Shown in pieces: positions 16,568-19,837 of a stretch of 21,605 bases of DNA. How positions within the stretch are numbered: position 1 is the first letter of the stretch; every line of letters begins with the position of its first letter. The DNA is taken from IMG/VR virus record IMGVR_UViG_3300032236_000800, positions 1 through 21,605 of that record. One strand, written 5' to 3'. The notes under the pieces are model-generated. The model worked only from the letters and a program-made list of their open reading frames with translations, had not been told where the DNA came from and ran no database searches. The DNA comes from a virus. The translations under genes were made by a program, and so were the position numbers.

Positions 16568-16878
16568 GCTCTGAATTCTTGCATGAAGTACCCCGCCAGC
16601 GGGATCAGTTTGGGCGCGTAGTCTTCCAACAACTCGCGCGGCACCGCGATCAGGGCATTGCTCTCCATGAACGTGCTGACCACATCCACTTCGCGTTTTT
16701 CATGGAAGATGAACGGACGCATGTACGAGCGAAACCTGATTCGGCGCATGTGCAGTTTGCGCTCACTCACGTCGTAGCTGACCCAAATGAATGTCAAACT
16801 GATACCTTTGTGTATCAGTTGCGGGGTGATATTTAAACCTATGCGTACCGATTGGCCTTCTTTGCGGATGTGTATCAT
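16540..16878 (-). CDS. Hypothetical protein after the terminase, 112 aa
   Basis: This 112-aa protein starts MIHIRKEGQSVRIGLNITPQ and has basic stretches (MRRIRFRSYMRPFIFHEKRE) then a more hydrophobic end (LIPLAGYFMQEFRAGVIGRY). I do not recognise a family. Its ATG overlaps the TGA of the terminase as ATGA, so it is translated together with it. Its end carries part of promoter-like element D. A packaging or head-completion role fits the position, without direct evidence. Confidence 0.72.
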   Translation of the reverse strand: MIHIRKEGQSVRIGLNITPQLIHKGISLTFIWVSYDVSERKLHMRRIRFRSYMRPFIFHEKREVDVVSTFMESNALIAVPRELLEDYAPKLIPLAGYFMQEFRAGVIGRYYG

Positions 16879-18314
16879 GCTGCGTATGGGTTGTAGACTT
16901 TGCGTGATGCAATCTCATCTGAGTGGCGGAAATCCCTGTCGGGCAGGGGGTCGAGTTGGAGCCAGCCCGAGTCGCGCAGGATGCGCAACCCTTGGCTCAG
17001 TGCGTCCACGTAGTCATCATGGCCTTTGGCCTCGGGGAACGAGCACACTTGGCGGATGAAGCGTTTGGCCCATGGCGCGATCTCGCCGGGCTGATCTGGG
17101 TCTTCGGGAATGAACACCTTGCCTTTGGCAATCAACGGGGCGACAATGTTCATGCGCTGCACCTTGTCCGCTTTGCCCGGGTTGTACGAACGCACGGGCA
17201 TGCCGCCAGCTTGCAGCTCCTGAATCAACGAGATGCCCGCGCTCTTGTCTTCCAGCAAAATCAGGTCGGCCTTCTTGCCTTTGGCAAAGGTGTTGTCCGC
17301 GCCGTACACCACTTCCTTGTAGTCGTCGCGCACTTTGCGGCGCAGGTCAGGATAGGCAAGGTGCTCGTCCCATGCGTCAAGGATCATCGCGCATGTGCCC
17401 GCGTCCTCACGCTCGAAGATGCCCAACACCACGCAGGCTGTCGGGTCGTTGTGGGTTTTCTCAGACGCCGCTGGGTCATACGACGCGATCACGTACTCCA
17501 ACGTGGGCGTTGGTCGGTTGGCTGGCCACAGCCTGAACCACTTGCGCTTGACGATACCCGCGTTCTCGGGGTCCAGAATCTCGCCGTAAATCTCCTGCTT
17601 GCCAAGGTCGGTGCCCTCGTACTGTTCCAGCTGTTTGAAGAACGTGGCGGACAGGTTGCTGCGGTTGTCGTATGAGCTGGCGCGCGAGACGTACACGTCG
17701 CCGCCCACCTTGCCCTCGTTCAAGTCCGTGATCAGCTCCAAGGGTTTGGGCGTGGTGGTGATGATCGATTGCACCCGCTTGATGCGCGGGTCGCGCAGAC
17801 GGAGCGTGAACTGGATTTGGTCGTATGCGTCGTCGATGTAGTCGAACGCGCACAACTCGTCCGCCCACATGCCATGCCACTGCGTACCCCGGAAGCGCTC
17901 TGGCTCGGAGGCAGGGATGCCCCGGATCATGGAGCCATTCTTCAACGTGAGTTCAAACAGCGACTTATTGTAGTCCTTGATCAGCGACTGAGGTATGATG
18001 TTGAGCAAACCCGAGTCACCCTCGAAACAGGTCGCGCGGATGTCGTTCGCCGTTGGCGCCGTCACCAACCAGCGGGTCTTATCGAACTCCGCCGCGCGCA
18101 GGCCGATCCAGTTGGACGCCGTGTGGGTCTTGCCCGATCCACGCCCGGCCAACAGCAAGAACGTGTCGTACTCGTTGTCCTCGGGTTCTCGTTGGTGGGG
18201 GAGGGCGGTCAGGTGCCAACGCACTTTCCAAAGCGCGAAGTCCAACGCCTCTTTTGGCCATCCTTTGTTTTTGGCCGCAAAGTCGGCTAGAATCTTTTCT
18301 TGTGCTGGTGTCAT
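16875..18314 (-). CDS. terL: Terminase large subunit
   Basis: This 479-aa motor packages phage DNA into the procapsid. Visible motifs: Walker A LLLAGRGSGKT at 53-63, a Walker B type HGMWADEL at 147-154 with catalytic Glu, the coupling-type motif IITTTPKP at 184-191, and RNase H-like nuclease residues ASYDPAASE at 277-285, LLEDKSAG at 353-360 and GHDDYVDAL at 431-439. The length is typical, and no intein interrupts the gene, although an intein-like gene lies right before it and overlaps its ATG as ATGA. The start at 18314 has a weak ribosome site, so translation is likely coupled to that gene. Confidence 0.95.
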   Translation of the reverse strand: MTPAQEKILADFAAKNKGWPKEALDFALWKVRWHLTALPHQREPEDNEYDTFLLLAGRGSGKTHTASNWIGLRAAEFDKTRWLVTAPTANDIRATCFEGDSGLLNIIPQSLIKDYNKSLFELTLKNGSMIRGIPASEPERFRGTQWHGMWADELCAFDYIDDAYDQIQFTLRLRDPRIKRVQSIITTTPKPLELITDLNEGKVGGDVYVSRASSYDNRSNLSATFFKQLEQYEGTDLGKQEIYGEILDPENAGIVKRKWFRLWPANRPTPTLEYVIASYDPAASEKTHNDPTACVVLGIFEREDAGTCAMILDAWDEHLAYPDLRRKVRDDYKEVVYGADNTFAKGKKADLILLEDKSAGISLIQELQAGGMPVRSYNPGKADKVQRMNIVAPLIAKGKVFIPEDPDQPGEIAPWAKRFIRQVCSFPEAKGHDDYVDALSQGLRILRDSGWLQLDPLPDRDFRHSDEIASRKVYNPYAA

Positions 18315-19198
18315 GGGATCAATGTGATAAAGCCCTCGCTCACGAGGATTGCATTTGCTGGGTCTTCAGTCTTCAAGTACACGCACTCGCGCACCGGTGC
18401 TTCCTCCACGCGGCGGATGCGGCGGTACTCCAAGTCCAGTGGTTTGTTTGGTGGCAGCTGATCGTCGATGAGTCTCATGAAGCTCCTGAAGCTGACGCGA
18501 AAATAAAAGCTGTGTTTGTTGTAGACGATGGAACTCCGCATTCCGAAAGACTCCACAAGATTCTGAATCTGTCGGGCCAAGGTCTGGTCCATCACGGCCA
18601 GAGAGAACAGCGTTGTTGTTTTGTTGAAACATTTGGGCTTCTTGCTCAGGATGCCCCTCAGCAACGCCAGCCGTTGCTCAAAGGACGCAAACAAATATTC
18701 TTCAGGGATTCGGTTGGGCACAATCGCATACCGCTCCATCAACTCGCGGCTGATTGCGGTCTGCGCCATGCGGCGCCGCTCCCTCGGTTCCATGATCCAC
18801 TGGCCAAACACATACGGGTCAACTGGCAGCGCGACCTCGCGCGGCCTGATCGGCTGACACACCGGAATGCGGCAGCGGCCAGCTTGCTTGCGCATGATGC
18901 TCTCCGCGTCCTTGGGTGTCACCGTGCCTTTACGGGGCCGGGCCCGGCTGGCGCTCCACATCCGCAGCGCGGTGAACTCCGTGTAAGAGTACGCCGGAAT
19001 CCCCGCGCGCCCATCCACCACCAAGGTCAGCCCATCCTTCATCCACACCTTGAAGCACTTGCGCGGCGTGTACTTCTGAACCAGCGTCACCTTCACCGGA
19101 TAGCCCGACTGGCCGAACAGCTCGTCGCCAACCTGAATCATCCCCGCCGGCAACCACCCTTTGGTGGTGGGCACCGGGATGCGCGCGTCAAACCCCAT
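18311..19198 (-). CDS. Intein-like (Hint/LAGLIDADG) protein, apparently non-splicing
   Basis: The 295-aa protein has the layout of an intein without host protein. Residues 2-31 (FDARIPVPTTKGWLPAGM, then QVGDELFG) match intein block A; about 44-70 match block B; 124-137 (LPVDPYVFGQWIME) and 174-189 (EQRLALLRGILSKKPK) match the two LAGLIDADG helices; 269-295 (VRECVYLKTEDPANAILVSE then GFITLIP) match blocks F and G. Key residues are missing: no Cys/Ser at position 1 (only the start Met), no TxxH in block B, no acidic ends to either LAGLIDADG helix, and no His-Asn at the end. Yet the frame is open and tightly packed in the operon. It is inferred to be a domesticated DNA- or terminase-binding protein. 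Confidence 0.8.
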   Translation of the reverse strand: MGFDARIPVPTTKGWLPAGMIQVGDELFGQSGYPVKVTLVQKYTPRKCFKVWMKDGLTLVVDGRAGIPAYSYTEFTALRMWSASRARPRKGTVTPKDAESIMRKQAGRCRIPVCQPIRPREVALPVDPYVFGQWIMEPRERRRMAQTAISRELMERYAIVPNRIPEEYLFASFEQRLALLRGILSKKPKCFNKTTTLFSLAVMDQTLARQIQNLVESFGMRSSIVYNKHSFYFRVSFRSFMRLIDDQLPPNKPLDLEYRRIRRVEEAPVRECVYLKTEDPANAILVSEGFITLIP

Positions 19199-19451
19199 GG
19201 CGTTTTAAAGCAATGCCTCGGTAGATGTTTGTCAGCTTGCCGTCAATCCGGATTCTGTCGGGAATCATTTGAATTCCTTTGAACGCTTTGAGGAATCTGT
19301 GCTTAAACGACATGGGGGAAATTACTGGAACACTATTGCCAATGCACCAAGATTCCCAAAGAACTCTGGCTTCCTCTTTGGTCACATGACCAAAGAGAGA
19401 CATATCAAAATGAGTAGAGATGAAATCGTCCATCAAGTCGTCGAGGTTCAT
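19188..19451 (-). CDS. Small winged-helix-like protein, terminase small subunit candidate, 87 aa
   Basis: This 87-aa protein (DDFISTHFDMSLFGHVTKEE, WESWCIGNSVPVISPMSFKH, ending YRGIALKRHGV) resembles the C-terminal DNA-binding domain of phage primase-helicases: a helix, WxxWC, a PxSxxxF helix, then RxxG...YRGI. Here it stands alone. It overlaps the 129-aa gene as ATGA and the intein-like gene by 11 bases. No other terminase small subunit is visible, and a small DNA-binding protein directly before the large subunit would fit that job. The alternative is a remnant or regulatory piece derived from a primase. Confidence 0.65.
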   Translation of the reverse strand: MNLDDLMDDFISTHFDMSLFGHVTKEEARVLWESWCIGNSVPVISPMSFKHRFLKAFKGIQMIPDRIRIDGKLTNIYRGIALKRHGV

Positions 19452-19837
19452 GCCTTGTCCTCAAAATCGCTGGTGTAAGGGAGCAAGATGGGGATCAACT
19501 TGGGATGCGCCTTCAACGCAACTCTCAGCTGATCTTGCGTCACGTCTTTGCGGCGCATCTCCCGATAGGCTTTACGGCAAACCTCACGTGCGGCATTGTT
19601 CTCAAGCAGGCTCAGGGTGCCCCGAGGCAACCTATCAGAAATCCGGTCGTACTTGCTCATGCGCAGTTTGCTGTCCGCCTTGCGGACATTTTCAAGTGCG
19701 TCAGGCGTTAACCAGATTTCCACATAGGTCCCGTCGGCCTTCAGACGGGCAGTGTACTTGTAAAACAAACGACCGTCTTCGCGCACTTCACCTCGCTTGA
19801 ATATCTGGCCGGTTGCTGGATTGATTCTCTTCGTCAC
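19448..19837 (-). CDS. Hypothetical protein at the start of the late series, 129 aa
   Basis: This 129-aa basic protein starts with GTG (MTKRINPATGQIFKRGEVRE) and includes DGRLFYKYTARLKADGTYVE and LPRGTLSLLENNAAREVC. The opening pattern, INPxTGxxFKRGxVREDGxxF, is one I have seen in unnamed phage proteins, some linked with HNH-type genes; I assign no function. AAGG lies about seven bases before the GTG. Element E is 23 bases upstream. It overlaps the next gene as ATGA, so it may belong to the packaging module. Confidence 0.7.
   Translation of the reverse strand: MTKRINPATGQIFKRGEVREDGRLFYKYTARLKADGTYVEIWLTPDALENVRKADSKLRMSKYDRISDRLPRGTLSLLENNAAREVCRKAYREMRRKDVTQDQLRVALKAHPKLIPILLPYTSDFEDKA

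Follow-up and report, generated by a model that had tools for sequence, protein, structure and literature searches.

The gene directly upstream of terL in the virus record studied here is, with little room for doubt, a domesticated, noncatalytic intein. The window, a linear IMG/VR virus record of 21.6 kb, carries tailed-phage late genes, and on its minus strand an intact open reading frame at 18311..19198 starts with ATG and encodes a protein of 295 amino acids. Profiles, phmmer, AlphaFold, Foldseek, and residue tallies mark this product as a free-standing and apparently catalytically dead intein of the class 3 type, composed of Hint and LAGLIDADG parts. The usual view of inteins is that they are parasites or, at best, serve as splicing switches within the protein that hosts them. 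In the present case, an entire intein has apparently turned into a normal, free-standing gene of a phage, and both of its enzymes appear to be dead throughout a diverse lineage. The best explanation overall, to which we would give an even chance, is that a domesticated class 3 intein has been kept as a DNA-binding packaging accessory. Inteins acting as splicing switches are known (PMC8987985), but our search of the open-access literature found no description of a complete intein that had become a fixed, free-standing gene beside terL in a phage.

Descent and structure of the protein

The earlier note on this DNA had proposed a 295-residue Hint/LAGLIDADG layout without an extein, and profile searches, phmmer, the AlphaFold (AF2) model, and Foldseek all agreed with that reading. 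Although the Pfam match was weak (LAGLIDADG_3, E=0.21, below the cut-off), PHROG terminase profiles matched the protein where their aligned TerL inteins lie (1.5e-13), and class 3 DnaB inteins were matched both by phmmer (7.6e-8) and by the family profile (1.7e-9). The AF2 model of the protein alone, for which 35 family members served as the alignment input, had a pLDDT of 91 and a pTM of 0.88 and showed a full-length intein-endonuclease fold: Foldseek matched it to the TliVMA, PhoVMA, and PI-SceI inteins over the full length (2.6e-11) and, in the Hint part, to mini-inteins of class 3 from DnaB. When a relative was used as the query, tblastn aligned it over its full length with inteins set in frame in phage proteins (Rousseau DnaB, 5e-29; B23 TerL, 1e-20; and mycobacteriophage RecB and TerL, among others).

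The class 3 signature, a WCT triplet (defined in PMC5050341), is present in 7/7 aligned active inteins, and several of the active inteins that were fetched and aligned are inserted between GK and T of the Walker A motif. The ends of the family proteins map to the old splice junctions, with the initiating Met in the place of the last N-extein residue and the stop codon at the position of THN. Residue 2 aligns with intein residue 1 and is Gly in the window protein (Ala in 71/103 family proteins and Gly in 32/103). In-frame exteins are absent; the gene has start and stop codons of its own, and terL is uninterrupted. Judged from sequence, the family is descended from class 3 inteins. An origin inside terL is possible, but the closest active relative found is a DnaB intein. 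From the GK/T insertion sites of the active relatives, the ancestor probably homed to DNA that codes for a P-loop.

All window features are given on the minus strand. By alignment and residue tallies, the N-terminal Hint segment comprises residues 1-75 (18974..19198) and has Ala at the block B His position and Ile at the WCT Trp position. The AF2 model and the tallies place the LAGLIDADG segment at residues ~124-240 (18479..18829); its first helix (residues 128-135, 18794-18817) ends in WIME, and its second (residues 173-185, 18644-18682) reads RGILSKKPK, with Lys in place of the catalytic Asp. The C-terminal Hint segment, delimited in the same way, covers residues 253-295 (18311..18442), retains the block F Cys272 (18383-18385), and ends with LIP and a stop codon in place of THN. 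The class 3 inteins compared with the protein were those of Brevibacterium phage Rousseau DnaB, Synechococcus phage B23 TerL, Escherichia phage Ec_Makalu_002 TerL, and M. smegmatis DnaB (PDB 6bs8). Common to both sides are the Hint fold, a residue 1 that is not a nucleophile, and the block F Cys, at 22-30% identity over the full length, and the phage class 3 inteins have the LAGLIDADG insert as well. Unlike them, the protein has no extein, it has lost the His of block B, the Trp and Thr of the WCT triplet, the His-Asn terminus, and the catalytic Asp of the second LAGLIDADG helix, and it is encoded by a separate gene before terL.

Public databases give a homing-endonuclease name to at least one close relative: A0A6J7WN65, a free-standing protein of 293 aa from an uncultured Caudovirales phage (41% identical; TM 0.92), is entered as 'DOD-type homing endonuclease domain-containing protein'. 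The family members aligned here, A0A6J7WN65 not among them, lack the second catalytic Asp. Two plasmid matches considered as stand-alone relatives were rejected on inspection, both lying inside larger genes.

Catalytic residues and selection

Residues were tallied in 103 distinct family proteins aligned with 7 active class 3 references. The block B His, the C-terminal His, and the C-terminal Asn, whose loss had been claimed for the window protein, are each absent from the whole family (0/103). The same is true of the WCT Trp (block B:12; 0/103 versus 7/7 active references), and the WCT Thr (block G:5) is found in a single protein (1/103 versus 7/7). The earlier claim that both LAGLIDADG acids are lost stood for the second, where no protein has Asp (0/103) and 89/103 have K or R, but failed for the first, which is D in 28/103 and E in 5/103 and is E in the window protein. 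The LAGLIDADG fold itself is present, as indicated by the full-length match to PI-SceI and TliVMA. A missing nucleophile at residue 1 had also been counted as a sign of death; this does not follow, because the relatives belong to class 3, whose members normally lack Cys/Ser there and use the block F Cys instead. That residue (block F:4) is kept in 101/103 proteins although its partner residues are lost. The same residues proved to be missing universally over the 103 proteins, and both splicing and nuclease activity are predicted to be dead in every relative checked. The family is basic, with a median isoelectric point of 9.5 and a mean charge of +15 (103 proteins).

The view of the earlier note that the gene has been kept and is not a decaying parasite is supported by the intact frames and by dN/dS values far below 1. 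By the Nei-Gojobori method, the 279 pairs with dS of 0.05-1, which share ancestry and are not independent, gave a median dN/dS of 0.13 and a maximum of 0.32; TerL gave 0.047 on the same 279 pairs. Between the window gene and its nearest relative, dN/dS was 0.042/0.525 = 0.08. Relative to TerL, the intein-derived protein changes 3.4 times as fast, and sister-clade TerS changes 2.9 times as fast. Moreover, A18, Q41, E216, and G289 show complete or almost complete conservation within the family and are absent or nearly absent in the aligned active class 3 inteins, and such family-specific residues fall in both the Hint and the LAGLIDADG parts. The loss of all known catalytic residues but one would by itself fit a decaying parasite or a chance ORF, but the low dN/dS, the full-length intact frames, the new invariant residues, and the single origin with vertical inheritance described below make such a reading scarcely credible. 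None of the three outcomes that had been named against a retained dead intein was seen, namely, a lack of Hint or LAGLIDADG matches, homologues with catalytic residues, or a dN/dS near 1.

Coupling to terL and history of the upstream slot

In the window, terL (16875..18314), which encodes the large terminase subunit (Terminase_6N/6C), has an intact Walker A motif, GRGSGKT, and no intein. The overlaps claimed with both neighbors are real: the stop codon of the intein-derived gene and the start codon of terL share ATGA (18311..18314), and an upstream ORF of 87 aa (19188..19451) overlaps the intein-derived gene by 11 bp. Among 156 loci to which either terL or the family profile had led, the gene lies directly before terL in 151, and the other 5 begin inside terL or less than 260 bp before it. 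After removal of repeats, 141 distinct viral contigs have the gene directly before terL, and terL came next in 80/80 loci found by the intein profile alone, which bears out the suggestion that homologues always lie 5' of terL. The start codon of terL is inside the intein-derived gene in every complete, abutting copy (119/119), with an overlap of 4, 7, or 10 nt. A conserved C-terminal Cys (93/103) was considered as a catalytic relic and rejected: in 108/110 cases an A stands before its codon and completes the ATG of the terL start, which accounts for the conservation of the Cys without any need of enzymology. An endonuclease VII-type HNH gene separates the intein-derived gene from terL in nine loci, five of which were inspected (L018:1029-1388, with similar insertions at L022, L023, L030, and L034); therefore, the direct overlap is dispensable.

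The terL genes examined in the intein-type clade align without an intein. This would be expected if the dead endonuclease relative occupied the P-loop site of terL and blocked active terL inteins, a form of homing immunity that also fits the probable P-loop target of the ancestor. However, sister-clade terL genes likewise align without an intein though they lack the intein-derived gene, and the Walker A codons are under no special synonymous constraint; we consider homing immunity very unlikely. In the synonymous-conservation scan of terL, both clades showed a dip at codons 106-120 (window ~17955-17999), the stretch of terL most strongly conserved at synonymous positions in the intein-type phages, where observed/expected synonymous change was 0.67 in the intein-type clade and 0.80 in the sister clade, and in neither clade was a dip centered on Walker A. 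The scan did not point to an old homing site in Walker A as a pac site.

In the TerL clade closest to the intein-type one, which comprises MW202545 and 80 contigs, TerS lies before terL in 76/80 contigs, the rest being truncated, and the intein-derived gene is found in 0/80. The outgroup, centered on Caulobacter phage RW, has TerS as well. The TerL tree shows one gain of the intein-derived gene (support 99/98), a pattern that, as far as phylogeny can tell, reflects a single entry followed by vertical inheritance. The sister-clade TerS proteins (L193-L272, 5' of terL) join three non-homologous N-terminal modules to one conserved C-terminal tail, NVFGELLKxIKxQRQ, which suggests swapping of DNA-recognition modules; because three unrelated N-terminal types occur on one tail, the slot before terL appears prone to exchange. 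No isolated (cultured) relative with the intein-derived gene was found; the closest cultured-phage TerL is ~42% identical, and its genome has TerS. One related contig falls in the bin of a betaproteobacterium MAG. As a separate observation, two genomes, that of Caulobacter phage RW and a single contig of the sister clade, have an N-terminal TerL ATPase fragment between TerS and full-length TerL (L085:2445-3113, L204:774-1319).

A TerS-like gene elsewhere and the role of the protein

The suggestion that the protein is the missing terminase small subunit was not upheld, as a conserved gene for a TerS-like protein was located at another place in intein-type genomes. Neither the sister-type TerS nor its C-terminal tail was found in six large intein-type genomes, three of which are probably complete because they have direct terminal repeats. 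All six, together with a seventh record, encode an HTH protein of 126-135 aa that matches PHROG 309 (terminase small subunit; 1e-13). The profile search was positive in 7/9 intein-type records, the two without a match being fragments of 31-36 kb. These genes lie at L089:12939-13343 (minus strand), L093:16058-16453 (plus strand), L098:18579-18956, L104:12805-13191, L103:3725-4108, and L108:3776-4168. The gene is part of the replication operon, ~16 kb from terL in genome G001. Contigs that carry it have the same 376-aa neighbor gene, presumably DUF2800, in 80/80 cases and terL in 0/80 over the 6 kb of flanking sequence taken to either side. Most homologues from isolates bear the annotation TerS, and the one in Rhizobium phage RHph_X3_2 stands directly before terL. 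The AF2 model had a pLDDT of 71, and its six best structural matches were all Sf6 TerS, each weak (E 0.15). TerS has probably moved to the replication operon, with the intein-derived gene now in its old place. Judging from its relatives, the window's own genome would also carry the relocated TerS; the window fragment ends short of the replication region.

Should the intein-derived protein have taken over the TerS role outright, it would bind pac/cos and recruit TerL, and the replication-operon HTH protein would do something else. This would account for the exact swap with TerS before terL between sister clades in one event (76/80 versus 0/80), for the absence of the sister TerS and its tail from intein-type genomes, and for the TerS-like evolutionary rate. 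The case is undercut by the conservation of the PHROG 309 protein, by the TerS annotation of its isolate relatives and the position of one of them directly before terL, and by its best structural matches, all to Sf6 TerS, weak as they are; an outright replacement is, in our view, quite unlikely. The 295-aa protein matches no TerS profile or fold and lacks the sister clade's conserved tail. Compared with TerS (PHROG 1482, PHROG 309, and Sf6 gp1), it has the same slot directly before terL and a similar divergence relative to TerL, but its fold is unrelated, it has neither an HTH domain nor a conserved TerL-binding tail, and a separate TerS-like gene is present. That the domesticated intein replaced or shares the DNA recognition of TerS, with the TerS-like HTH protein serving another purpose or a later step, we regard as unlikely.

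Four features favor a DNA-binding packaging accessory: conserved co-translation with TerL, a basic protein, Lys or Arg in place of the acid at the old nuclease site, and the TerS-like rate. As to its origin, the gene is, with little doubt, an intein that parted from its extein and now starts and stops where splicing once took place; splicing and nuclease activity appear to have been lost early in one phage lineage, after which the gene was retained. The mechanism that we propose for its product is tentative and held with somewhat less than even confidence. The basic product would be translated from the late operon together with TerL and bind DNA at specific sequences. Its old homing-endonuclease DNA-binding face may mark or present the packaging site, and together with the relocated TerS it would help TerL to start packaging. 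Against this stand the failure of the synonymous scan to single out the Walker A homing site, the HNH gene that makes direct overlap dispensable in nine loci, and the fact that coupling to terL is also open to a late-operon regulator.

Such a transcription regulator, placed first in the operon, would have a precedent in WhiA, a regulator made of an HTH and a non-nucleolytic LAGLIDADG part (PMC3781837, PMC11701221) that is likewise LAGLIDADG-related and not a parasite. The intein-derived gene is the first late-operon gene in G001, and its product is basic with a DNA-binding fold. However, WhiA is a cellular gene product without a Hint domain, whereas the phage protein comes from a late operon and has no helix-turn-helix match in Pfam, and the start-stop overlap in all abutting copies ties the gene to terL itself. 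We hold this reading possible but do not favor it. The Hint domain might instead bind the TerL ATPase and restrain or chaperone it until packaging, in keeping with the lodging of the nearest active relatives in GK/T P-loops, the co-translation with TerL, and the new invariant residues in both the Hint and LAGLIDADG parts. The high mean positive charge and the replacement of an acid by Lys/Arg at the old active site favor nucleic acid, which makes a TerL-directed factor rather improbable.

If the packaging role is true, the site of packaging would be specified in a new way, and the gene would be a clear example from nature of how a selfish element became a working phage part, for which the sister clades show the states before and after. 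A LAGLIDADG motif has been proposed in a viral terminase before, in HCMV pUL56 (PMC7920273, PMC11937570); the idea is alike, but pUL56 is a different protein and the claim concerns a short motif.

The 87-aa ORF at 19188-19451 is similar to the C-terminal domain of phage primase-helicases, with 27-39% identity to the large helicase of relatives. It is apparently a stray extra copy of that domain, confined to the window, with no counterpart beside the intein-derived gene in relatives. A 129-aa protein without a PHROG match, encoded at 19448-19837, carries a TGQIFKRGEVREDG motif; in relatives its gene is often located 5' of the intein-derived gene, and in another genome it is found in the replication operon.
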